Source of the DNA: Candidatus Peregrinibacteria bacterium CG_4_10_14_0_2_um_filter_38_24 | GTDB lineage: Bacteria > Patescibacteriota > Gracilibacteria > UBA1369 > LOWO2-01-FULL-3 | Length of the DNA: 42,697 bases | Direction: 5' to 3' | Assembly: GCA_002792535.1 (NCBI GenBank) | Contig: PFOM01000020.1 | Span: 1 to 42,697 of the forward strand | Shown here: positions 25,975-39,517 of the stretch, one piece after another | Numbering within the stretch: position 1 is the first letter of the stretch | Layout: each line of letters begins with the position of its first letter | Notes under the pieces: generated by a model | What the model was told of the DNA's origin: nothing | Seen by the model: the letters and a program-made list of their open reading frames with translations, nothing else | Database searches by the model: none | Position numbers and translations under genes: made by a program

Positions 25975-26100
25975 TTGTTATTTTTTCATAAAAATTTTAA
26001 GTTTTTTTAACAAAAATTTAATCTCGGCATGATATACCGCTTGTATATTTACCTTTTAAATGATAATATTATGTCATATGATATTTTAATATTAAATTAT

Positions 26101-26319
26101 ATGAGCATGTTGTCCGTGCCTTTGACTCCTGAGCTTGAAGAGAAGATTAACAGGCTTGTAGAAGATGGCGTCGCCGCTAACAAGGCTGATCTGGCAAGAA
26201 AAGCTATTGAGTTTTTTGCAGAACAGCAGGCAATTGAGGATGTTTTGAGGGCGGAAAAAGAGCTTGCCGATGGCAAACTTCTTAGCGGGGATCTTGATGA
26301 ATTAGCAAAACGTATATGA
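26101..26319 (+). CDS. Ribbon-helix-helix-type antitoxin
   Basis: A short protein (72 residues from the ATG at 26101; 26107 is also possible, and upstream ATGs exist at 26071 and earlier in an AT-rich, unlikely leader). The sequence MLSVPLTPELEEKINRLVED followed by GVAANKADLARKAIEFF is a strand-helix-helix pattern like ParD/RHH DNA-binding antitoxins, followed by a charged C-terminal arm (AEKELADGKLLSGDLDELAKRI). The stop codon overlaps the toxin start (ATGA). It is not homologous to the Phd-like antitoxin at 1122-1397. AT-rich partial dyads lie upstream between 26062 and 26100. Confidence 0.75.
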   Translation: MSMLSVPLTPELEEKINRLVEDGVAANKADLARKAIEFFAEQQAIEDVLRAEKELADGKLLSGDLDELAKRI

Positions 26320-26573
26320 TAATCTTTTACTTACCAGCTTTTGTAAAAAGTTATAGAAAGTTACCTGCAGACTTACGTGCTGAGGCTAAAGAAAAGATTG
26401 AACTGTTCAAAAAAGAGCCTAATCATCCATTTTTAAAAACTCATAAATTGAAAGGTACTCTTTTCGGAAGATTTGGTTTTTCGGTAAATTATTCTCACAG
26501 AATTGTATTTCAGTATTTATCAAAAACCGAAGTTGCATTGCTTGCGATTGGAACCCACGAGATATACAAATAA
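26316..26573 (+). CDS. RelE/ParE-superfamily toxin, YafQ-like (second copy)
   Basis: An 85-residue toxin whose ATG overlaps the antitoxin stop by 4 bp. It has the same framework as the toxin at 1398-1664: FLPAFVKSYRKLPADLRAEA in the helices, then FLKTHKLKGTLFGRFGFSVNYSHRIVFQYL and a terminal GTHEIYK. The NYSHRI histidine and the terminal His-Tyr pair are candidates for catalysis. mRNA interferase activity is inferred from the family. The two pairs in this window share the toxin fold but use different antitoxin folds. Confidence 0.8.
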   Translation: MIIFYLPAFVKSYRKLPADLRAEAKEKIELFKKEPNHPFLKTHKLKGTLFGRFGFSVNYSHRIVFQYLSKTEVALLAIGTHEIYK

Positions 26574-26638: not shown

Positions 26639-27166
26639 ATGACAAAATTAAAAATAGAAACTGGCACAAAAAATCCGATACTTAGAGCGAAATCTAAGCC
26701 TGTTAAAAAATTTGACGCAGCGCTTAGGAAATTTGTGAAAGATATGAGGGAAGCCATGATGAAGGAAGAAGGGCTTGGAATAGCGGCTCCGCAAGTTGGA
26801 AAAAATATTCGCGCGTTTATTGTGGTGATGGATTACAATAAAAAATCCGAAAGAATTTTGGCGATGATAAATCCTGAAATTGTCACAAAAAGTGAAGAGA
26901 TGGAAGAGGGAGAAGAGGGATGCCTTAGCCTTCCCGGTAAATTTGCAAAAGTCATGAGACATAAAGAAATTACTGTGGAATTTTTTGATTTGGACTGCGT
27001 GAGGCAAGTTTTAAATCTTCGAAATTTAAATGCACGTGTTGTTCAACATGAGAATGATCATATTGAAGGAGTTCTTTTTGTTGATAGACTTGCGGAAGGC
27101 GCGATCATTGAAGAAATTGATGTGAAAAGAAAAAAGGGGGATAAAGATGGGGAAAAGAGAATTTAA
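26639..27166 (+). CDS. def: Peptide deformylase
   Basis: Removes the formyl group from new proteins, using a metal ion. The 175-residue protein has all three motifs: GLGIAAPQ (45-52), EGCLSLP (about 92-98, Cys metal ligand) and QHENDHIEG (about 137-145, two His ligands and the catalytic Glu). In motif 3 the usual hydrophobic residue after HE is Asn. A charged tail (KRKKGDKDGEKRI) follows. It converges with the peptidoglycan hydrolase gene with a 4-bp overlap, so the two stop codons share bases. Confidence 0.93.
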   Translation: MTKLKIETGTKNPILRAKSKPVKKFDAALRKFVKDMREAMMKEEGLGIAAPQVGKNIRAFIVVMDYNKKSERILAMINPEIVTKSEEMEEGEEGCLSLPGKFAKVMRHKEITVEFFDLDCVRQVLNLRNLNARVVQHENDHIEGVLFVDRLAEGAIIEEIDVKRKKGDKDGEKRI

Positions 27167-29175
27167 TTTTGAGGAATTTCTCCAAAAATCGGAGCTGTTG
27201 CCATGTTGTGAAATGCCACTTTTTCTTCGAGTGCCATCATTGCTCCAGAGGCCTGATGTGCAACCAGTATTTCTCTAAGCATAGGAGCAAATTCCTCGGT
27301 CCATTTTGTTTCTCCTTGAGGAGTTATCACTCTTGTTTTTGTGATGTCGAATGTGTTTCCGAATTGGTGGGTCGAAATTCCTGTCGTTGCTACCGGATTT
27401 TTTGCGAGAAGTTTTGTTATTTTTTTGCCTCTTTTGTTTCTCTTGACAACTTTAACCGGTGCATTTAGGGCTCGCTGATCCGCATCTGTCCTGTATAAAT
27501 CAGAGATTACCAATTTGTATCCATCGGATTTTTTGTAAAAATCTTCGGCGACAAGTCTCAATAAATATAGTGCGTGAGGAATGAGATATGGTCTTTTTGC
27601 GAGCTCTCCTGCAACTGCAAAATGTTCATTTTTTGCGTCCACTTTTACTAATTTTCCGGCTTTTACTAACGCATCTATATCGTCCCCCAAAACCCCTGTA
27701 CCTTCCGCTTTTGCTTGCGCCAAAAGCTTGCTTTGAGCAGAACGATATGGAGCTGTTTGATTGAATTTATAAGGGTACAATGATGGCCTTTTTGCCTTGG
27801 CGTCTTGATGAACTTCCCCCTGCAATACGGGCTTAATCACTTTTGCATGTGCAAAAATTTTCATGGCATATTGAACGGAATCTTTCCCAAAAGCTCCTGT
27901 GCCTTCCGTCCCGTTATCATAAGTGTAAAACCATAAAATAACTTCCCATGCGAAATTGTTTTCATCAAAATTTTTGGCGGCATTTTCTCCTTCTTTTTCC
28001 ATGAACGCTTTCAGCAATCTGTTCACTCCGCCTCCACCTGAAATGTATGAGCAATATAGCATCGGGATCACGAATTTTTTTTGGAATGATTCCTCGGACT
28101 CAAATGGGAATTTTGTTTTGAATTCTTGAAGGGTGCCTTTTATTCTTTTTAAATATGCATCGTAATTGAATGGAGCCATAGAGCTTGAGGCTTCAGGAGA
28201 ATGAAGAAGTGGGCGAAGATATGATTGGCTTGTTCGTCCTGACAATCTGAAAGTCAAATCCTTTTCAAGCGTACCTTTGTTTGTCGCTAACAAGTCCACC
28301 GAGTTACCGGAAAAGCTTTCTCCGTTCCTTTTATTGGCTTGCATCTGCCATAATCCGTAACATTCTCTTGAGCTTGCCGCGTCTTCATCCCAGCGTGATT
28401 CTACTGTGGCTTGGCCGTAAATACATGTTTGTAGGAATTCTTGCCTTACTTCGTCATTTACAAAATATTTTGAAGTTTCCGTTTCTGCAAATGCGTCTCT
28501 GTAATTTGGATAAACTCTGTCTATCAAAGGAGATGCTTTTGTTTTTATTCTGTCTGCAAATCCCGGATCAGGGCTTACTTGTACACGAGGTTTATTGTTG
28601 GCTAAGTCTATTGTTATTCCTTTTGCCGCAAGTTTTTTGCGATTTTCCGCGTGCCATTCGTTTGAGGCTACGGCTACTCTTGCTTTGTAGGCTTTCTTGC
28701 TTTCTTTTTTAGCCTTCGGTGGCCGTATAAAATCATATGGAAATTCTCCTACAATTCTAAAATTATCGTCTAAATAATAGGCTGTTTTTTGTGCTGAGGA
28801 TAAGATTCTTACCTGATCATCTATTGTTCCTTGAAAAGATGGATGCGCGGAGGCGTTTTCTTGAGTTTCTTCCGAGGTGGTTTTTGTTGTTTCTTGCAGT
28901 AGTTGTGGTCTTGTTCCCAATGTATCCGGCGTTGCAGTAGAGCCAACATAGCTTTGTATAGTTTTGACTACTTTTATCCCACCATTCATTCCGGCGGCCC
29001 CTATTGCCAATCCGGCAAGGGCGGCGGCAACTTGGCCCGCTTTTATCTCGGACATTTGTCCAATCTTTTGTAAAATTCCTCTTCCTTTAGCACTTTCGGC
29101 AGGAGTTTGTGAAGGTGTTGCGGGTTGCTGTGGTTGAGCCTCAGGTGTAGCCGGATTTTGATCTTCTGTGGACAT
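27163..29175 (-). CDS. Membrane-anchored peptidoglycan hydrolase: lysozyme-like plus M15-like peptidase domains
   Basis: 670 residues from the ATG at 29175 (MSTEDQ); an in-frame ATG at 29244 would overlap the upstream gene and is less likely. A Pro/Gln-rich stretch precedes one hydrophobic helix (AGQVAAALAGLAIGAAGMNG). A lytic-transglycosylase-like region has ATVESRWDEDAASSRECYGLWQMQ, the ESRW...GLWQ catalytic pattern. The C-terminus resembles M15/DUF5715 D,D-carboxypeptidases, with SDLYRTDADQ, STHQFGNTFDIT (metal His and Asp) and a late VAFHNMA (third His). It probably cuts glycan and peptide bonds of the wall outside the membrane. Follows the one-helix membrane protein gene by 13 bp. Confidence 0.78.
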   Translation of the reverse strand: MSTEDQNPATPEAQPQQPATPSQTPAESAKGRGILQKIGQMSEIKAGQVAAALAGLAIGAAGMNGGIKVVKTIQSYVGSTATPDTLGTRPQLLQETTKTTSEETQENASAHPSFQGTIDDQVRILSSAQKTAYYLDDNFRIVGEFPYDFIRPPKAKKESKKAYKARVAVASNEWHAENRKKLAAKGITIDLANNKPRVQVSPDPGFADRIKTKASPLIDRVYPNYRDAFAETETSKYFVNDEVRQEFLQTCIYGQATVESRWDEDAASSRECYGLWQMQANKRNGESFSGNSVDLLATNKGTLEKDLTFRLSGRTSQSYLRPLLHSPEASSSMAPFNYDAYLKRIKGTLQEFKTKFPFESEESFQKKFVIPMLYCSYISGGGGVNRLLKAFMEKEGENAAKNFDENNFAWEVILWFYTYDNGTEGTGAFGKDSVQYAMKIFAHAKVIKPVLQGEVHQDAKAKRPSLYPYKFNQTAPYRSAQSKLLAQAKAEGTGVLGDDIDALVKAGKLVKVDAKNEHFAVAGELAKRPYLIPHALYLLRLVAEDFYKKSDGYKLVISDLYRTDADQRALNAPVKVVKRNKRGKKITKLLAKNPVATTGISTHQFGNTFDITKTRVITPQGETKWTEEFAPMLREILVAHQASGAMMALEEKVAFHNMATAPIFGEIPQN

Positions 29176-29188
29176 GAGGGGATGGGAA

Positions 29189-29890
29189 TTATTGCCTTGT
29201 GACGGAGAACTTTCGCATGTCATCCTTGGGGAATTGTGAAACATCTTCGTATGTCCATTCCCAGCCTGGTGCAGGTTTTCTTTTTCCTTCTGGTGTAATT
29301 ATGATTTGGCCGTTCTTTATGGCTTCGTCTATTGATTTTGGAATGACTACTGTTCCTGATGGGATTTCTGCTGGTGCTTTTGGGTCTACATCTGGATTTT
29401 TCTGTGCCGTTATATTTGCCGATCCATTTATTAAAGGGATTCTGTTCGCACCATAGATTGCTCCACTCATTGCTCCACCAACCAATGTTCCCCATACAAG
29501 TAATCTTGCTGCTTTATTATGCATAATTTTTCTAATCTTATTTGGGGATTTTGGCGTTGGAGCACGACTTGGGGCAGTTTTTTGTTCAACCGGTAAATCA
29601 GGAGAAACGGGAATTGGAGGATTAACCGCCACTTCTTCCGGTGGTTCGTCTTCCGGAAACGTTATACCATCGTCAGAGGTTGTTGTGGTTATCCTCGGTT
29701 CGTCCAAGTCCACTGGGTACAACTTTACTTCATACTGCGGTACGTTAGTTGGGGCTGCGGCCGGTGTCGAAGTTGATGTTCTTGCCGCAATTGGGCCAAC
29801 AACAATCTGGCTGTTGGTTTCGACTGGCGTTCCCAGTTCATCGTCCAACCTTATAAAATCATCATCCGGTTGTTGTCCTTCTGTAGACAT
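29189..29890 (-). CDS. Single-pass membrane protein with Pro/acid-rich cytoplasmic part, function unknown
   Basis: A 233-residue protein not recognised from any named family. Residues 1-115 are acidic and Pro/Thr-rich (for example PEDEPPEEVAVNPPIPVSPD), then a basic stretch PNKIRKIMHNKAAR, then one hydrophobic helix (LLVWGTLVGGAMSGAIYGAN, about 128-148), and an exported tail of about 85 residues with TPEGKRKPAPGWEWTYEDV. The basic-then-hydrophobic order puts the N-terminus in the cytoplasm. Its first residues (MSTEGQQPD) resemble those of the next gene (MSTEDQNPA), suggesting a shared origin of the leader. It has its own strong promoter and lies directly before the wall hydrolase, so a partner or regulator role is plausible. 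Confidence 0.7.
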   Translation of the reverse strand: MSTEGQQPDDDFIRLDDELGTPVETNSQIVVGPIAARTSTSTPAAAPTNVPQYEVKLYPVDLDEPRITTTTSDDGITFPEDEPPEEVAVNPPIPVSPDLPVEQKTAPSRAPTPKSPNKIRKIMHNKAARLLVWGTLVGGAMSGAIYGANRIPLINGSANITAQKNPDVDPKAPAEIPSGTVVIPKSIDEAIKNGQIIITPEGKRKPAPGWEWTYEDVSQFPKDDMRKFSVTRQ

Positions 29891-29918
29891 TTATTTGTAT
29901 TTAAGTTAAGAGTATGGT

Positions 29919-29947
29919 ATTTTATGTGGTTTCGAGGAAAATGTCAA
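29919..29947 (-). promoter_or_regulatory. Strong promoter before the membrane protein / hydrolase pair
   Basis: On the minus strand a perfect TTGACA (29947-29942) and TAAAAT (29924-29919) are separated by exactly 17 nt. Transcription would start near 29912, giving a leader of about 22 nt without a Shine-Dalgarno sequence. It makes 29890-27163 transcribable independently of the WG-repeat gene upstream. Confidence 0.75.
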
Positions 29948-29954
29948 GAGGCCG

Positions 29955-32900
29955 TTATCGAGATTCCTGCTTCTTATTCTTCTTTTTATGCTTCTCGACT
30001 GCGTCGTGTATGGTTTTTTTGATCTTGTCCGAGCTATCCCAATAATCGATTACGATTACGTTTTTGCCACTGCCTAGTTCTTGAAGTCCTTGTCCTGTTT
30101 TTCTGTAAAAAATTTGAAACAAACTATGTTTGTTTAACATTATCTCAAGCTTGTTTGCCTTTATGTATTCATCATCGATAACGGAGAGAGTGTGGATGCC
30201 AAGTTTTAGACTTTGCTCGTATTTTTTCAAATCTTCTAAATCATAATTAGTGTCTGCCCATAAACTTATCTCTAATTTTGGAGTAAGGCTATCGCTTAAC
30301 GCTTGTACCCAATCTCTTACCTCGTCTTTCTTGAATACTTCTACAATTGGCCGTACGGTTATTACATTTTTGTAAGTTGTTATTGTGTATTTTCGGCGAG
30401 AACCATTGTCTTTAACTGTGGCAGGGAATCCTCCTTTCTGTGGCTTGGAAAAGTCCATGTCCATACTTACTGTTCTTCCGGCTTTATCTGTCATAGTAAG
30501 TAAGATATAATCATTATCTTTGCCTTTTTTTACTTCTAGTTTGTATGTAAAGCTGTCCTTCGGTAAGACTCCCAAGTCGACCTTAAACCGATAAGAAGCT
30601 TTTTCTTTTCCTTTGTCGTCGAGGGTTGTTACCCAAGTCTTCCCCTCTTCTCTCAAGAGTTCGTGTAGGTGTTTTACTTTGGCCGCGGCTTCTGCGGCGG
30701 CTTCTGCGGCGGCTTCTGCGGCGGCTTCTGCGGCGGCTTCTGCGGCGGCTTCCGGTGCGGAGATTGTGTATACATTCTTTTCATTATCACAGGTTATTTC
30801 TAATTTTTTATTATCATCATAATATTTCATTATCTCGCCATTTTTTGGGTTCCTGTAAATAAATCCGAGCCTTGATTCCCCGTCATATATTGAAACGATC
30901 TTTTCTCCATAGACTGGATTGGTATTTTTGGGATATTGGAGCGATTCAACCTTTAAACTGTATGGTGTTGTGTTGTTTATTCCGTATCCCAATGTTGATT
31001 TGTCTGGATCTGTAACGATGATTGTTTTTTCGTTATCACTCAGCCCAACTTCTCCGTAGTATTTTGGAACTACTTTTTCGAGTTTTTTCTTTCGTGCTCT
31101 TTCTTTTACCTTTGGATCTCTGAATGGATCGACCACGGCGCCGTTTTCTGTTAGGAGTAGGCTGGATTTTCTGTCGGCCGGAGTTTTTTGTTTTGATCCA
31201 AGTTCTACACGGATGAGGTCTTTATTATCAAGTTGGACGTTTTCGTCATCTAATATACGTGCTTTTATGTCTCTGGATCTTTCGATGGCAAGAGCCATAT
31301 TGAAGATTCCTTGGGCTTCAAGGAATGCATCTTGGTTGTCTTGAACGAGCTGTTTCGCTGCCACTAAATCTGAGCCTACTTTTGCGATATAGTTTAAGAT
31401 TAAATCTTTTGTTTTCTTGTTTGGATCTTTGTCCTTAGGCTCGAAGATTACTCTTCCGGCAGACATCAGTTCTAAGAGTTTTGCTAGGGCGGTGGCTTTG
31501 TCTGTATGCCACTCTTGGGTTTGGTTCTCAACTTTTTTGAGTGAGTATTTTGTTCCGTCTACACTTCCTAGGTATGCGAGTTTATCTTTACTGAGTGACC
31601 CCTTGCTTATCAATTCTTTTGTTCCTTTTATGATGTCTTTTGTTTTTTTTGATGCATCCCCTTTTATGTGTCTGTCAAGTTTGTAGTAGTACAGGAATGC
31701 CTTCTTGATTTGCTTAGGAGAGGCTTCGACTTTTACGGTTTTTAGAAGCGTTTGCAATTCTGATATGTCTAGTTTTGATTTGAAGTCTAAGGCTTCGGGT
31801 GCGGGGGCGAGTGCTTCGGGTGCGGGGGCTTCCTTGATTTCGAAATTGCCATCTTCGAGTTGGGAAACCTCGTATGCTTTTCCGTCTGCAGATTTTAATT
31901 TGTCTGAGCCTACAACATTGAATTTGTCTTCTTTGTGCTCATAAACAAGCCATCGTGTCATTTCACCCATTTTAATATGAATGCATTTGGTGCCATGCTT
32001 ATCTGCAAAATCTGGATTTACTCCATCCAAGGTTAAGGTAACCTTAGCTTTTAGTTCCTCCGGTACGCTGATCTTTGTTGCTTTTTTTGTGTCATCCGGA
32101 AGAGTGACAGTGAAGGTATTTTCTTTGAATTCGTAGTCTTTTGGTGGTTGTTTTTCTGGCGCGGCTGGTGCGTCGGCGGGTGCGTCAGCGGGGGCGACCT
32201 CGTCGCCAGCTGGTGCAGCTTTGTCGTCGGCGCTTATGTCTCCTTGTAGCGGCTCACTTGATACATTTGGCGCAGGCGCCCCATATGGATCGTCGTCTGC
32301 AGGTGGCGCGACTTTGTCTTTTTTCGCCGCTAGGTCTGCAGATGGGTCTGCGTCTGCTTTTCTTGCGGCTTCCGCGGGAACTTTTTCAAGTTTTCCTTTG
32401 GTGTCGATGTAATACCATTTGCCTCCTTCTTTAACGTTGGCAAAGCCGTCGCTAAATGGCTCTGCGTAATCAAATGCTTTTCCTTTAAATGCTTTTTCCC
32501 CTTTGGTGTCTATGTAATAATACTTCCCGTTTTCTTTCTCTTGAACCATCGCGAAGCCGTCGCTAAATGGCTCTGCGTAATCAAATGCTTTTCCTTTAAA
32601 TGCTTTTTCCCCTTTGGTGTCTATGTAATAATACTTCCCGTTTTCTTCCTCTTGACCCCATTGAAATCCTTCACTTAAGGCTCCTTCTTCGTAATATTTA
32701 GGTTTTTCTGCTGCGGCTGGCGCGACTTCGTCTTTTTTTGTCGCTAGGACTACAGAGGGGTCTGCGCCTGCCTCTGCGGTTTTCTTTGTGACAGTTCCTG
32801 GGACTGCTTTGTCCAGCGTTGCGCCTTCTGGTAAGTCTGCGGCGGTATCCGGGGTTGCCTTCGATGGAAGTGGAGCTGCTTCTGGCCCCGTAGCTTGTTG

Positions 32901-32966
32901 AAAACACAAGCGGTTTTCTTTGCCAAGCAAATTTAGTATATTCTCAAATAGGTTGAAATTGTGCAT
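29955..32966 (-). CDS. Large WG-repeat protein with low-complexity linkers, function unknown
   Basis: A 1003-residue protein. No signal peptide is apparent; the N-terminus is MHNFNLFENILNLLGKENRL. Residues about 90-200 contain three WG-type repeats (DYAEPFSDGFAMVQEKENGK, YYYIDTKGEKAFKGKAF), two of them 37 residues long and identical in DNA. Long Ala/Pro/Asp/Lys-rich linkers follow (about 200-280). The remaining 700 residues are soluble, charged and unrecognised, interrupted by an (AEAA)n run near 740-765, and end in a basic tail (HKKKNKKQESR). It lies 39 bp after the FemA/B-type gene in the envelope block. WG repeats usually mediate protein contact, often at the surface; the role here is unknown. 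Confidence 0.75.
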   Translation of the reverse strand: MHNFNLFENILNLLGKENRLCFQQATGPEAAPLPSKATPDTAADLPEGATLDKAVPGTVTKKTAEAGADPSVVLATKKDEVAPAAAEKPKYYEEGALSEGFQWGQEEENGKYYYIDTKGEKAFKGKAFDYAEPFSDGFAMVQEKENGKYYYIDTKGEKAFKGKAFDYAEPFSDGFANVKEGGKWYYIDTKGKLEKVPAEAARKADADPSADLAAKKDKVAPPADDDPYGAPAPNVSSEPLQGDISADDKAAPAGDEVAPADAPADAPAAPEKQPPKDYEFKENTFTVTLPDDTKKATKISVPEELKAKVTLTLDGVNPDFADKHGTKCIHIKMGEMTRWLVYEHKEDKFNVVGSDKLKSADGKAYEVSQLEDGNFEIKEAPAPEALAPAPEALDFKSKLDISELQTLLKTVKVEASPKQIKKAFLYYYKLDRHIKGDASKKTKDIIKGTKELISKGSLSKDKLAYLGSVDGTKYSLKKVENQTQEWHTDKATALAKLLELMSAGRVIFEPKDKDPNKKTKDLILNYIAKVGSDLVAAKQLVQDNQDAFLEAQGIFNMALAIERSRDIKARILDDENVQLDNKDLIRVELGSKQKTPADRKSSLLLTENGAVVDPFRDPKVKERARKKKLEKVVPKYYGEVGLSDNEKTIIVTDPDKSTLGYGINNTTPYSLKVESLQYPKNTNPVYGEKIVSIYDGESRLGFIYRNPKNGEIMKYYDDNKKLEITCDNEKNVYTISAPEAAAEAAAEAAAEAAAEAAAEAAAKVKHLHELLREEGKTWVTTLDDKGKEKASYRFKVDLGVLPKDSFTYKLEVKKGKDNDYILLTMTDKAGRTVSMDMDFSKPQKGGFPATVKDNGSRRKYTITTYKNVITVRPIVEVFKKDEVRDWVQALSDSLTPKLEISLWADTNYDLEDLKKYEQSLKLGIHTLSVIDDEYIKANKLEIMLNKHSLFQIFYRKTGQGLQELGSGKNVIVIDYWDSSDKIKKTIHDAVEKHKKKNKKQESR
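30683..30752 (-). repeat. 12-bp tandem repeat encoding (AAAE)n
   Basis: The unit GCGGCGGCTTCT (plus strand) is repeated about five and a half times without change. It encodes an Ala-Ala-Ala-Glu run in the WG-repeat protein, probably a rigid helix. Perfect repeats of this kind slip easily, but always by four codons, so the frame is kept. Confidence 0.9.
32443..32651 (-). repeat. 111-bp duplication encoding two WG repeats
   Basis: About 98 bp starting at 32443 recur at 32554 (period 111 bp, 37 codons) with essentially no differences, in contrast to the more diverged third WG unit. A recent in-frame duplication is the simplest reading. Confidence 0.85.
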
Positions 32967-33005
32967 AGTTTTTGTTTTTATTTTATTACTTATTTCTTTG
33001 ATGTA

Positions 33006-34097
33006 TTATTTTACCATACTTTTGAGTCTGTACGCAAGGTAAAGAAGTTTCTTGAATGCGTGCTCTTGGGGGTTTATGTATGTGAGACGCTTTCCGCCGA
33101 ATTTGTTTTTGAAGTCGGTGACGCCCGAAAGTTTGTGTTTTTGGTCATTTTCAGGGGAAATTCCCATAAAATCGTACCACTTGAATCCGTCTTTTTTTGC
33201 CTCTGTTATGGCGTGCCATTGAAGTAAATATGGCGCCATCGTGTTTCTGTATTCGTTTGAGGAGGCACCATAATAATATGTCGCTGTGTCTTTGTGGGTC
33301 ACGGCGATCATGCCGGCGACGGGGGTGTTTTCGAATTTTGCGAGATATAAAATGGCTTGTTGTGGGAGATTTTCGACCATCGCGGTGTAAACTTCTTTTG
33401 GATGACGAGTAAATCCGTCTCTCGTTGTCGTGTCTCCAAGAAGTTCATAAAAATCGTCGATGGCTTTGTTTAGCTCTTTTTTGTTCGACGGTGTGTCGTC
33501 GTTTGCTGTGTATTTTTCGATTGTTACGCCTTTTTTCTCGGCAAGTTTTATATTGTATCTGCCTTTTGGTTTCATTTCGGAAAGTAATTTTTCTTCAGAT
33601 TTTTCAAGGTCTAAAACAAGTGTATCTTGAGGATAAAATCCTTCTTTGATTTTTCGGAAATTTTTGAAGAGTAGGGAAGTGTGCTTGCTTGTTTTTGCAA
33701 TAATCGGTGGATCAAAACGGACAAAAATCGAATGTTCCAGTTTTGAAAGTTTTGAGATTTCTTCTAAAAGTGATGAAACTTGGTGATTTATTTCCTTTTC
33801 AGTGAGATTTTCATAATCCAAAAGTGGCCCACGTGAGCCATAAAACCAAGAATAACCTTTTGGCATTTTGTGACGAATTACGACCGTTCCTCCTATGATT
33901 TTTAGGGCTTTTGCGTCCTTCTTTGGACCGCCTGTTTTCTCATCTGTGAGCGCAATAATCCAATATTGTCCACGACCTTTCATCACTCCTTGGAAACGTG
34001 CCCAAGCCGAAGATTGTTGGATTCCTCCAAGTGGATGATTATTCACAAATTCATCCCAAATGACTTCCTCTGATTTTGCTAAGATTTTGGCTTTCAT
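33006..34097 (-). CDS. FemA/FemB/FemX-type peptidoglycan bridge aminoacyltransferase
   Basis: A 363-residue protein of the Fem family, which transfers amino acids from aminoacyl-tRNA onto the peptide of lipid II. Landmarks are the N-terminal LGGIQQSSAWARFQGVMKGRG, GYSWFYGSRGPLLDY, VLDLEKSEEKLLSEMKPKGRYNIKLAEKKGV (Fem core), the GNAT-like YLAKFENTPVAGMIAVTHKDTATYYYGAS, and APYLLQWHAITEAKKDGFKWYDFMGI with the FKNKFGG end. No tRNA-binding coiled-coil arm is inserted. It is downstream of ftsA-ftsZ on the same strand, consistent with wall synthesis. The amino acid it adds cannot be told from sequence. Confidence 0.88.
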   Translation of the reverse strand: MKAKILAKSEEVIWDEFVNNHPLGGIQQSSAWARFQGVMKGRGQYWIIALTDEKTGGPKKDAKALKIIGGTVVIRHKMPKGYSWFYGSRGPLLDYENLTEKEINHQVSSLLEEISKLSKLEHSIFVRFDPPIIAKTSKHTSLLFKNFRKIKEGFYPQDTLVLDLEKSEEKLLSEMKPKGRYNIKLAEKKGVTIEKYTANDDTPSNKKELNKAIDDFYELLGDTTTRDGFTRHPKEVYTAMVENLPQQAILYLAKFENTPVAGMIAVTHKDTATYYYGASSNEYRNTMAPYLLQWHAITEAKKDGFKWYDFMGISPENDQKHKLSGVTDFKNKFGGKRLTYINPQEHAFKKLLYLAYRLKSMVK

Positions 34098-34688: not shown

Positions 34689-35852
34689 TTAGTTCATCTT
34701 TTGTCTGATGAATGCCGGAATGTCTAGTTCGTTTTCCGTTTGTTTAAGCGGTGTTGAATCTGTACCTGAGAATGCTGAACGGCTTCGAGCCTTCAAAATT
34801 GAAGTGTCGTTTTGCTTGTAATCAAAGCCTGTCGCAACAACAGTAATCTTGATTTCTCCAGTGTATGAATCGTTTATTACGGCTCCGAAGATTATATTTG
34901 CTTCAGGATCTGCGGCTTCAGTAATAACTCTTGCGGCCTCATCAACCTCGAACATACTCAAGTCGTTTCCACCAGTAATGTTGAACAAAATACCCTTTGC
35001 ACCGTCGATAGAAAGTTCCAAAAGTGGGCTTTCGATAGCGGCTTTTGCGGCTTCTTCGGCTCTGTTTTCTCCTGTTCCGTAACCAATTCCCATAAGCGCT
35101 GAACCTGCGTTTTCCATAACAGCTTTTACGTCCGCGAAATCCACATTGATCATTCCGTGAACCGTGATCAAATCTGCAATACCTTGAACACCTTGTCTTA
35201 GAACATCATCAACTACCGCAAATGCGTCATTTAGCGGAGTTTTCTTGTCTATTATTGAAAGAATCTTGTCATTTGGAATTGTAATAAGTGTATCAACTTT
35301 GTTTTTTAGGTTTTCTAATCCTTCTTCCGCCTGGCTCTTTCTCTTGTGTCCTTCGAATGAGAATGGCTTTGTGACAACTGCGACCGTTAGAATGCCCATT
35401 TCTTTCGCTATATTAGCGATTGCAGGGGCGGCTCCCGTTCCAGTTCCTCCTCCAAGACCACAAGTCACGAAAATCATGTCGCTTCCTTCAAGAGCATCTC
35501 TTATTTCATCTATGCTTTCTTCGGCGGCCTGTCTTCCGATATCAGGGTTTGAACCGGCTCCAAGTCCACGTGTTGTAGCTTTTCCTATATTGATCTTTGT
35601 TGGAGCGTCTGAGTGATACAAAGCTTGCGCATCTGTATTCACGGAAATGAAATCAACGCCTTTTAATCCTGATTTAATCATACGGTTAATCGCGTTTCCT
35701 CCACCTCCTCCAACTCCAATGACCTTTATATTGGCTACCGGTGTGATTTCAGGAGTGACTTCCATCGTTCTTGGTTTTGGCTTTAGAACTACTGATTCTC
35801 TGTGTGAAGAGAATAAGTTTTTAAGGTCTTGTTTGTCATCACGTGTTGCCAT
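34689..35852 (-). CDS. ftsZ: Cell division protein FtsZ
   Basis: The tubulin-like GTPase that forms the division ring. The 387-residue protein has the N-terminal [13 protein letters not shown], the GTP tubulin signature GGGTGTG (134-140), and NLDFADV-type T7 region ([14 protein letters not shown]). The C-terminal peptide [12 protein letters not shown] matches the consensus that binds FtsA. A leader of about 38 residues precedes the core, somewhat longer than usual. It follows ftsA on the same strand, but a strong promoter in the 103-bp gap allows separate expression. The stop is followed by a small hairpin (TGCGAC-GAA-GTCGCA) and a terminator. Confidence 0.97.
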
Positions 35853-35955: not shown

Positions 35956-37197
35956 TTATGGGAGCAAGTTTTTAAACCAGCTCTTCATATTGTTCAGCCC
36001 TTTCTTTATATTTAGGCCCTTTAACCCCATTCCTCCATGTGGTCTGCCTTCAAATCTTGATCCCCAAATCAGAAGTCCTATTGCTGTTGCATAGGCAGGG
36101 TCGTCAATTTTGTCCACAACTCCATCGTAGTTTTGAGGGAATCCAATTTGGGCAGGAAGATTTAGTGTTTCGCGTGCAAGGTCTATTATTCCCGGCATTT
36201 TTGCGCCAGCTCCCGTAAGAATTGCTCCGGCAGGAAGCATTCCGTCTCTGTGAATTTTTGTAAGTTCGTCTTTTACCAACAGTAAAATTTCGTGATATCT
36301 GGCCTGAATAATTTCTACGACTTGTCTCTTTGATACGACATGAACGTCTATTTTGCTCAAGAGAGAGAGGTCTATCACTTCTCTGTCATTTACATCTTCA
36401 GGGATTACGCTTCCGTATTCGATTTTTAGTTTTTCGGCTGTGTCTATAGACGTACGAAGACCGATTGCGATGTCATTTGTGACGTTTTCTCCTCCGACCG
36501 GAACCATTGATGTGTGAAGAAGCGCTCCATCTTCAAAAACGGTGACGGACGTTCCGCCGCATCCAATGTCTATAACCACGACGCCAAGCTCTTTTTGACG
36601 CTTTGAAAGGACAGCTTCGGATGGCGCGAGTGAATTTGGGATGATGTCGTCAATGTCCACTCCGGATTGAAGTACGCATTTTTCAAGATTTTTGATAGTT
36701 GGATCGAATCCTGTAATGATGTGTGTTTCGACTTCGAGGCGAATTCCTGTCATTCCAACGGGGTACTTTATGCCCTTTTGTTCGTCTACCGTAAATGTCT
36801 TTGGGATAATTCTTAAAATTCTTCTGTTGCTTGGAATTGTTACCGCTTGCGCCGCTTCTATCACTCTATCCACATCATCTTCTGAAATCTCGTTTTCGGC
36901 TTGAGAAACAGCAATTACGCCTCTTGAATTCAAAGATTCTATGTGGTTTCCACCAATTCCCAAGAAGATATGGTTTATTGGTTCTCCTGCCATTCTTTCG
37001 GCGTCTTCAAGTGATGCCGAGATGCTGTTTATTGTTTCTTCAACGTCTATGACCGCTCCTTTTCTTAGCCCCGTTGATGGAGCTATTCCCACGCCTATCA
37101 CATTTGTAACCGGAGACTCATCGTCTTTTACACCAACAACCGTCCTTATTTTTGAGCTACCGATGTCCAGGCTGGCAATAATTTTTGATCTTGCCAT
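35956..37197 (-). CDS. ftsA: Cell division protein FtsA
   Basis: An actin-like ATPase that ties FtsZ to the membrane. The 413-residue length is normal. The N-terminus has the phosphate-1 motif ASLDIGSSKIRTVVG, followed by the SHS2/1C domain (RRILRIIPKTFTVDEQKGIKYP), phosphate-2 VVVIDIGCGGTSVTVFEDG and adenosine motif AGAILTGAGAKMPGI. The last residues (GLNNMKSWFKNLLP) form a short amphipathic helix that would anchor it to the membrane. It starts the ftsA-ftsZ pair, with its own promoter at 37238-37266. Confidence 0.95.
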   Translation of the reverse strand: MARSKIIASLDIGSSKIRTVVGVKDDESPVTNVIGVGIAPSTGLRKGAVIDVEETINSISASLEDAERMAGEPINHIFLGIGGNHIESLNSRGVIAVSQAENEISEDDVDRVIEAAQAVTIPSNRRILRIIPKTFTVDEQKGIKYPVGMTGIRLEVETHIITGFDPTIKNLEKCVLQSGVDIDDIIPNSLAPSEAVLSKRQKELGVVVIDIGCGGTSVTVFEDGALLHTSMVPVGGENVTNDIAIGLRTSIDTAEKLKIEYGSVIPEDVNDREVIDLSLLSKIDVHVVSKRQVVEIIQARYHEILLLVKDELTKIHRDGMLPAGAILTGAGAKMPGIIDLARETLNLPAQIGFPQNYDGVVDKIDDPAYATAIGLLIWGSRFEGRPHGGMGLKGLNIKKGLNNMKSWFKNLLP

Positions 37198-37273: not shown

Positions 37274-37452
37274 AAATTGTTCGGGCCAGTATGCGGGTGG
37301 GGAAGATATTTATTTGAAATTGATGTTATCATTTGTCAGTCCTAACATGTACGGACTGACAAATATTGACTGATCATGATCAGTCAATAAATAACATAAG
37401 TAATTTCAAATAAATATCTTCCCCACCCGCCTCAGATCGGCTCGAACAATTT
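37274..37452. repeat. Two-hairpin inverted-repeat element, copy 2, with terminator-like extension
   Basis: The core is 37293-37430. Outer arms 37293-37321 and 37402-37430 pair perfectly over 29 bp. ATGTTAT (37323-37329) pairs with ATAACAT (37391-37397). Hairpin 1 has 12-bp arms 37331-37342 and 37353-37364 with loop TAACATGTAC (37343-37352). Hairpin 2 is the perfect 24-nt palindrome 37365-37388 with CATG at its centre. A further pair, 37274-37287 with 37439-37452 (13 of 14 match), reaches into the stop codon of the exonuclease gene. On the minus strand a T7 tract follows at 37276-37270, so in that direction it looks like a giant intrinsic terminator. Confidence 0.92.
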
Positions 37453-38371
37453 AAAATAAAGTTTGTTGTTCGACAGAGTCTTCTGCGCGTGTTCGGTCTG
37501 AGTGATTGTTGAAATTTGTGAGTTTTGCAATGAGGCTTTTGAATTCGAATTCTTGAAAAAGTGAAATTATTTTTTCCTTGTCGTATGCGTGGGAAACGCA
37601 TGCTTCGAGATTTAACGAAACCGGCACATCTCTGACTATTGTTGCGAGATGTAGGCTTTGAAATGCAGAGTCTTTGTCCATAGACAATTTTTCCTTTAAT
37701 TTGCCTTCGATTTCGTCGATGTGTCTATATATATTGTCTATTGTCCCGTATTTTTGAAGGAGAATTAATGCTGTCTTGTCGCCGACGCCATTCACCCCTT
37801 TTATATTGTCCGAGCTGTCGCCTTTTAGGCCTTTTAGCTCAGGAATTTGGGCAGGAGTAAGCCCGTATTTTGCGAATACTTTTGGGATATCGTAAGTGAT
37901 TGTTTCTGCGATTCCCCTGACCGGTGTGTAGACAAATGTTTTTTCGCTGACAAGCTGGATCGCGTCCATGTCGCCAGTGACTATATACGTGTAGACATCC
38001 TCTGATTTTTCGGCTTGGGTTGCCAGCGTTCCCAAAACGTCGTCGGCCTCAAATCCTTCTTTCTCGTAAATTGGAATGCCGAATGCTTCAACTACGCGAC
38101 GAATCATAGGGATTTGCTCGTAGAAATCGTCGGGGGCTTTTACGCGAGTTGCTTTGTATTCTTTATACTCTTCGTGTCTGAAAGTTGGGCCTTTCAAGTC
38201 GAAAGAAACTGCTATGAAATCCGGATGCTCTTTGTTTAGAATATTTAAAAGCATTGATGAAAAACCATAGACTGCGTTTACCAAAGTTCCTTTTGAAGTT
38301 TTGAATGGTGGGATTGCGTGATATGCGCGGTGCATTATTGCGTTGCCGTCGATGAGTATTAATTTCGTCAT
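37451..38371 (-). CDS. Stand-alone PolA-type 5'-3' exonuclease
   Basis: A 306-residue protein matching only the 5' nuclease (FEN-like) domain of DNA polymerase I. Metal-site and helical-arch motifs are LILIDGNAIMHRAYHAIPPF, VSFDLKGPTFRHEEYKEYKA, EKEGFEADDVLGTLA, VTGDMDAIQLV and the H3TH region LKGLKGDSSDNIKGVNGVGDKTA. The PolA-like segment LFQEFEFKSLIAKL follows, but the proofreading and polymerase domains are absent. It ends in EQQTLF, which fits the bacterial sliding-clamp-binding consensus QxxLF. It would remove Okazaki primers or flaps. Copy 2 of the structured element abuts its stop codon. Confidence 0.92.
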   Translation of the reverse strand: MTKLILIDGNAIMHRAYHAIPPFKTSKGTLVNAVYGFSSMLLNILNKEHPDFIAVSFDLKGPTFRHEEYKEYKATRVKAPDDFYEQIPMIRRVVEAFGIPIYEKEGFEADDVLGTLATQAEKSEDVYTYIVTGDMDAIQLVSEKTFVYTPVRGIAETITYDIPKVFAKYGLTPAQIPELKGLKGDSSDNIKGVNGVGDKTALILLQKYGTIDNIYRHIDEIEGKLKEKLSMDKDSAFQSLHLATIVRDVPVSLNLEACVSHAYDKEKIISLFQEFEFKSLIAKLTNFNNHSDRTRAEDSVEQQTLF

Positions 38372-39133: not shown

Positions 39134-39517
39134 TTACTGCAAGCTTTCCGGAGAGGAAGTAGTGCTACTTTCTGTCGTTATGCTTTTTATTGTATTGATT
39201 ATGTCTCCGAGATTGATGTATTTGATGATATCAAGTCCCATCGCTTTACCAACTGTTCCGACAATTACTGTTGAAAGGATTGTGATGATAAGACCGATAA
39301 TGGCGTATCGAATTGTGGAAACTGCTGATTTGATTTTGTCTTCGGCTCCCCCTGAAAGGATGAAAGATATTCCTCCCATGAAGATAAAAACCACGGATAA
39401 AAATCCCGCAACAATGATTGCATAAGCAAGTCCTCTGTTTATTATTTCGAGTACTTGATAATTTTGTGCAGCTTCAATAATACTTTGAGACTCAGCGTAT
39501 GCAGTTGGGGAAAACAT
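39134..39517 (-). CDS. VirB2/TrbC-like two-helix membrane protein
   Basis: A 127-residue protein with two hydrophobic helices (LAYAIIVAGFLSVVFIFMGG and YAIIGLIITILSTVIVGTVG) joined by a short polar loop, ISFILSGGAEDKIKSAVSTIR. This arrangement and the SGGxEDKxxxAxxTIRYAIIG motif are typical of small CPR pilin-like proteins of the VirB2/TrbC type. The first residues (MFSPTAYAES) look like the end of a signal peptide with a cut after AYA, but the frame is closed upstream by a TAG and no earlier ATG exists. The tail is Ser/Thr-rich. No other secretion genes are near. Confidence 0.72.
   Translation of the reverse strand: MFSPTAYAESQSIIEAAQNYQVLEIINRGLAYAIIVAGFLSVVFIFMGGISFILSGGAEDKIKSAVSTIRYAIIGLIITILSTVIVGTVGKAMGLDIIKYINLGDIINTIKSITTESSTTSSPESLQ

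Follow-up and report, generated by a model that had tools for sequence, protein, structure and literature searches.

Contig PFOM01000020.1 of Candidatus Peregrinibacteria bacterium CG_4_10_14_0_2_um_filter_38_24 is 42,697 nucleotides long; this whole stretch, contig C37 of genome G000 (1.10 Mb, 98.5% complete), is the window of the present analysis. Downstream of ftsA and ftsZ it encodes a giant protein of 1003 residues that begins with a short conserved tag, and the same tag recurs throughout the class in dozens of large proteins that are otherwise unalike. Judged by its sequence, the tag looks like an undescribed protein-sorting signal, with the 1003-residue protein among its carriers. We see not far short of an even chance that this protein is a substrate of an undescribed sorting pathway of the Gracilibacteria-type Patescibacteria, in which export would be chaperone-assisted and independent of Sec. 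The tag, its position, the lineage, the features of the carriers and a paired gene are observed; the docking, chaperone role and export are what we propose.

The common motif was first seen on comparing the starts of WG and core proteins (described below), and a profile made from eleven such starts matched many unrelated open reading frames (ORFs) near their own starts; a second profile was built from 53 sequence windows. The consensus is F-K-E-N-R-[LF]-[VI]-[FY], with FKENRL[VI]FMAGPE in the strongest examples, and lies within the first ~40 residues. Among 44 tag windows, F was found in 20 of 43, K in 31, E in 35, N in 23, R in 39, [LF] in 43, [VI] in 34 and [FY] in 43 of 44, and in most carriers an A/P/E/G-rich stretch follows. 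In the 1003-residue protein the tag region, identified by profile matches and a position-specific scoring matrix (PSSM), comprises residues 1-32 (MHNFNLFENILNLLGKENRLCFQQATGPEAAP; 32871..32966, minus strand), with the core GKENRLCFQQ at residues 15-24 (about 32895-32924). The profile E-value is 1.4e-13, the protein being in the training set, and 1.2e-5 with the second profile; its PSSM score of 26 bits makes it the sole ORF of the window above 10. At the invariant residues every one of the six Arg codons occurs, as does every Leu codon, so that selection acts on the peptide; a motif at the DNA level is ruled out, since the codons vary freely.

The second profile matched 48 of 60 genomes of the order, as against 1 of 60 for a column-permuted control profile. 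Elsewhere in the class it matched 47 of about 228 genomes at E<=0.05, where about 11 are expected by chance; outside the class it matched 3 of about 260 at E<=0.01, in ORFs of 28-111 aa, which is the chance level (about 2.6 expected). The out-of-training matches that were checked (G161, G194, G109, G132, G139, G169 and G049) were all N-terminal, with G050 and G049 lying in the order. Across 25 inspected loci, the in-class matches that the scan recovered were likewise all N-terminal; the scan missed a match in L246 and L253, and the gene of L253 was later seen N-terminally tagged in L279. PSSM scores above 16 bits occurred at 1 of 512,499 non-N-terminal positions, an unbiased count, vs 59 of 72,765 N-terminal ones, a count biased by the many loci chosen by their tag. 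The permuted control and the N-terminal restriction together rule out a generic low-complexity artefact. A 400-kb sample yielded one new carrier (L109), the tag being too rare for an estimate of enrichment. No sorting-signal model covering the tag was found in Pfam or among the best 25 of 40 families of NCBIfam, HMMER being weak on short motifs, and a literature search, with subscription papers and preprints outside its scope, found no paper containing the string ENRLVF or describing such a tag.

The carriers have a median length of 753 aa vs 369 and are poor in Cys: their median content of 0.18% lies below both the 0.84% of soluble controls (p 8e-9) and the 0.59% of signal-peptide proteins (p 0.003). 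Nearly all are devoid of signal peptides and of any hydrophobic transmembrane (TM) window, defined as 19 residues with a mean Kyte-Doolittle hydropathy of at least 1.6; a hydrophobic window near the tag is present solely in the GltB-like L146. Most carriers match no known domain, the exceptions being WG (4), GDSL (1), phage-tail lysozyme (1), calpain-type peptidase (1), LytR-CpsA-Psr (LCP; 1), FHA (1), TSCPD (1), coiled coils and two glutamate synthases. The LCP carrier is a protein of 1431 aa without TM segments, with the domain at residues 1126-1262 (E 3.8e-12 / 2.4e-14); another carrier has a weak peptidoglycan-binding match (E 0.003, under the cut-off). LCP enzymes act outside the membrane, and such a domain in a protein lacking TM segments would, along with the depletion of Cys, speak for export.

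Could these proteins instead be variants of a single ancient, expanding family, the tag being all that can still be recognised of a common N-terminal domain and having no role in sorting? Carriers do concentrate in a few loci (the slot behind ftsZ-FemX and a tpiA-linked locus), and the core domain is common to some of them. However, the domains (LCP, WG, core and calpain-type) differ between carriers that show no detectable similarity to each other, and what these carriers share is about 8-13 residues at a distance varying from 1 to 36 from the protein start; a short peptide conserved alone would, moreover, still imply some function for that peptide. We regard a common origin of this kind as improbable.

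Both repeated carrier loci merit description. At the tpiA-linked locus, a tagged protein of 1.4-3.3 kaa often precedes one that seems to start with a signal peptide. The second carrier of the window genome belongs here (L088:4992-12227, on contig C23; 2411 aa): it lies by a tpiA-like gene and before an apparent signal-peptide protein, an arrangement that recurs in several relatives. The same genome encodes a 535-aa protein with an eroded tag, MHKFKSVEKFSFKEKRFLNIFEG. The FemX slot is part of a conserved frame in Ca. Peregrinibacteria/Peribacteria that reads exo-ftsA-ftsZ-FemX-[slot]-def-prfB-flippase, and its content is variable: in other families different large proteins fill it, some of them with tag variants under the threshold. 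Among 80 named FemX loci, ftsA/ftsZ are directly upstream in 39, and at least one tagged protein was present in the fetched stretch in 14 of these 39 vs 2 of the 41 without ftsA/ftsZ. At L292:9233-18055 (G076) three tandem tagged proteins (1608, 990 and 318 aa) stand behind FemX, and a fourth, of 385 aa, upstream of exo. As side observations, a tagged protein adjoins two T4SS_pilin-like genes in G059 (L285), and in G050, G038 and G037 one lies by long multi-TM-looking proteins without a Pfam match.

These locations bear on the alternative that the tag is an intracellular docking peptide, by which large proteins of the scaffold or coiled-coil type are tethered to a receptor in the cytoplasm (at the division ring, on the inner face of the membrane or in an internal compartment) and are not exported. 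The composition of the carriers is like that of soluble proteins, coiled-coil, SMC-like, FHA and calpain matches occur among them, the tag with its flexible linker resembles docking peptides, and ftsA-ftsZ are nearby. Such tethering is nonetheless harder to reconcile with an LCP domain in a carrier without TM segments, with the strong Cys depletion, and with the many carriers encoded elsewhere, for instance after tpiA and before a giant signal-peptide protein; we hold it to be doubtful.

Many tagged genes have a small one beside them, often directly upstream. An iterated profile search delineated a partner family of about 117 aa, helical, mostly acidic (median isoelectric point (pI) 5.6; below 6 in 21 of 36) and in many cases ending in LLxxL. 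There were 36 partners in the fetched loci, 21 of them at most two genes away from an ORF that is fully or weakly tagged; across the class, weak matches to the partner profile, at E around 1e-7, abound and could be generic helical proteins, and hence only strong or adjacent matches were counted. The genome-wide search gave 13 same-strand partners whose genes end 7-92 bp ahead of a tagged start, and the 400-kb sample, in which none was reported, gave no further member.

Small acidic helical neighbours of this sort, the 13 upstream partners included, recall type III secretion, where dedicated small chaperones serve substrates. The likeness extends to a signal in the first tens of residues without a Sec signal, and to a small (~13 kDa), often acidic helical partner encoded beside a larger Cys-poor substrate. 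In contrast, type III signals have no strict sequence consensus, whereas the tag has one, and to our knowledge no type III apparatus is known in these bacteria, no search aimed at one having been made. YSIRK-G/S and KxYKxGKxW are short N-terminal sorting motifs of Gram-positive surface proteins that form parts of Sec signal peptides; like them, the tag is a short N-terminal motif found across otherwise different large proteins of one lineage, but it has no hydrophobic core and no model of such a kind matched it. The cargo peptides of encapsulins and microcompartments, and the C-terminal peptide of FtsZ, offer a third parallel in their combination of a short docking peptide, a flexible linker and a folded cargo. 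These are usually C-terminal or amphipathic-helical, and neither a shell protein nor a receptor was found here, no search aimed at them having been made.

We picture the sorting pathway as follows. The tag would stay on the protein and dock, via the flexible linker, onto one common putative receptor, while the small protein would act as a dedicated chaperone that keeps its giant partner competent for export or assembly. The putative receptor would then bring the proteins to the wall, taking them over the single membrane by a path other than Sec; at the locus in the window, the WG/core protein would arrive at the site of wall building and cutting by FtsZ, FemX and the anchored hydrolase. The more specific proposal that FKENRL[VI][FY] is the signal of a lineage-specific non-Sec export system with dedicated small chaperones, taking the giant proteins of Gracilibacteria-type episymbionts to or beyond the envelope, is advanced tentatively.

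Several points weigh against the sorting and export reading. A composition classifier separating signal-peptide from cytoplasmic proteins (cross-validated area under the curve 0.87) assigned 19% of the tagged proteins to the exported class, vs 20% of large cytoplasmic ones, so that an exported composition is not seen. The FHA, TSCPD and coiled-coil matches in some carriers suit a cytoplasmic place. The first motif set came from this very search, which makes the within-training counts circular and limits independent support for the tag to the permuted control, the specificity count and the out-of-training matches. There is no match in 12 of the 60 genomes of the order, including all five sampled from family f4. 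The genus of the window has no small partner at the FemX-slot locus, and that the one-helix protein encoded there stands in for it is a guess. Export is something that we infer, and both the receptor and the channel are hypothetical. Finally, two glutamate synthases (L091:2693-7393 and L146:1-1584) bear the tag-like sequences FKEKFLIFKE and FAENRLVFNR just before the presumed N-terminal Cys, perhaps by chance, although it is curious to meet this twice.

The glutamate synthases bring up the possibility that the tag serves in the processing, stability or translation start of large proteins (as a propeptide, degron or adaptor site). GltB proteins are processed at an N-terminal Cys, two of them have the tag-like sequence in their N-terminal region, and the tag is near the protein start throughout. 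Against this stand its specificity for large Cys-poor proteins with a paired small gene, and the residues downstream of it, which show no invariant position of the kind that a cleavage site would suggest. Such a feature is thus quite improbable as an explanation.

The 1003-residue protein itself (29955..32966, minus strand) has no TM segment and 3 Cys. It matches WG_beta_rep (PF14903) with E 3.8e-14 and has two WG repeats above the cut-off (52.9 bits vs 25.6). It differs from that family in that the repeats are optional here: they are absent from the G001 orthologue, and the sister genus g13 divides WG repeats and core domain between two proteins of one stretch. The WG repeat region (32395..32655, minus strand) consists of 111-nt near-identical tandem copies (99%), while (AAAE)n is encoded by a perfect 12-nt repeat at 30685..30752 (minus strand); with repeats that are 99-100% identical, the recent internal duplications that an earlier note had proposed from the letters of the window are confirmed. 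In G002 (contigs C25 and C31) and G003 (C57 and C41) contig breaks fall within or at the core/WG gene, as one would expect where a gene is rich in repeats and changes fast. The core domain (residues 396-622; 31101..31781, minus strand) was delineated by iterated local profile searches and belongs to a family that recurs in 18 ORFs from several families of the order. Structure prediction gave it a confident AlphaFold2 (AF2) fold (pLDDT 83.7, pTM 0.80) without a convincing relative, there being no match in the PDB by sequence or fold. There is a hint of an OmpA/MotB-type peptidoglycan-binding fold (MotB Z 3.1-3.5; Pfam OmpA E 0.096 in 1 of 15 members), too weak to be accepted; Foldseek and VIA-align gave nothing above Z 4.3.

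The four consecutive minus-strand genes of the locus are the FemX/FemAB-type aminoacyltransferase (33006..34097; FemAB, PF02388, E 1.3e-48, 166 bits vs a cut-off of 24), the WG/core protein, a one-helix protein and a putative hydrolase, all present where the earlier note had placed them; the spacing between them (39, 64 and 13 bp) is consistent with an operon. FemX begins 591 bp past ftsZ (34689..35852), which is preceded by ftsA (35956..37197) and by the 5'-3' exonuclease exo (37451..38371), where the conserved frame starts; all three are on the minus strand. The other edge of the slot is a plus-strand gene (26639..27166) with homologues at the same place in relatives, which we take from its sequence to be def, a peptide deformylase homologue. 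The one-helix protein (29189..29890, minus strand; 233 aa) has a conserved C-terminal ~60 aa and a single, borderline hydrophobic segment at residues 130-148. It belongs to no family in Pfam or NCBIfam; of the two middle proteins for which the earlier note had recognised no family, this one thus has none, whereas the giant protein matches the WG repeat family and otherwise nothing convincing. In G003 (L038:1187-3655) the one-helix protein has 822 aa and, judged by eye, the C-terminal domain of the WG/core proteins seems to recur in its N-terminal part.

The membrane-anchored putative peptidoglycan hydrolase (27163..29175, minus strand; 670 aa) was assigned the internal ATG at 29175 in place of 29244, because its orthologues begin there and the overlap with the upstream gene vanishes. 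It has a borderline TM segment at residues 49-67. The M15-like domain at its C-terminus is DUF5715 (27220..27729, minus strand; PF18979, E 5.5e-14, 52.6 bits vs a cut-off of 26.8), with STHxFGNTFD...H conserved, and overlaps a weak VanY/M15 match under the curated cut-off. The SLT-like stretch ATVESGW..GLWQMQ (28324..28452, minus strand) matches SLT (PF01464) with E 0.003 and 17.6 bits, under the cut-off of 21.3, though the catalytic-type Glu and GLWQMQ are kept in all four members of the genus. The hydrolase resembles these families in its HxxGxxxD-type residues, Glu and GLWQ; it differs from VanY, in which the second Zn-side motif is E-x2-H, in having E-x4-H. Its AF2 model (pLDDT 42) is unusable, and its profile found no real match among PDB sequences.

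The neighbourhood was compared across 118 relatives, the genus being represented by the window genome and three others (G001, G002 and G003). In these three the order is exo-ftsA-ftsZ-(toxin-antitoxin-like pair)-FemX-core-helix-hydrolase, followed by def, prfB and the flippase gene, so that the position by ftsA-ftsZ holds in the window and the genus; the toxin-antitoxin-like pair between ftsZ and FemX is not in the window, where two small genes similar to a RelBE-type toxin-antitoxin pair stand ahead of def (26029-26573). The reading that the four genes are one wall-remodelling or attachment machine draws on the set being kept in 4 of 4 genus members (divided over contig ends in two of the three relatives), on the operon-like spacing and on FemX and the hydrolase being wall enzymes by family; the combination of FemX and a putative wall hydrolase that has two domains and a membrane anchor speaks for a role in the envelope. 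The earlier note had itself tied a single unit to the genes staying together, and outside the genus they come apart: the full-length hydrolase and clear one-helix homologues are confined to the genus, and G028 has the C-terminal (DUF5715-type) domain of the hydrolase as a lone copy elsewhere in its genome. One machine is therefore a tentative possibility; an envelope role is supported, the unit as such is not, and for host attachment no evidence was found.

Elsewhere in the window, a T4SS_pilin gene (PF18895, E 9e-7; 39134-39517) lies upstream of the ftsA locus, and pieces of one paralogous protein family occupy both contig ends (1-3000 and 40948-42630), which probably explains the end of the assembly at these points.

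From Patescibacteria, published genome papers describe many large proteins that are extracellular or are predicted to be secreted although they lack a signal peptide, in passages that make no mention of the tag (PMC4736985, PMC6851277, PMC8080830). The sorting reading addresses how such giant proteins may reach the surface and interact with the host. As the tag is readable from sequence, it provides a candidate list per genome (2-8 profile matches in many genomes of the order), a named partner family and a bait peptide (FKENRLVFMAGPE) for finding the receptor, and the unknown giant proteins would thereby become one testable pathway.

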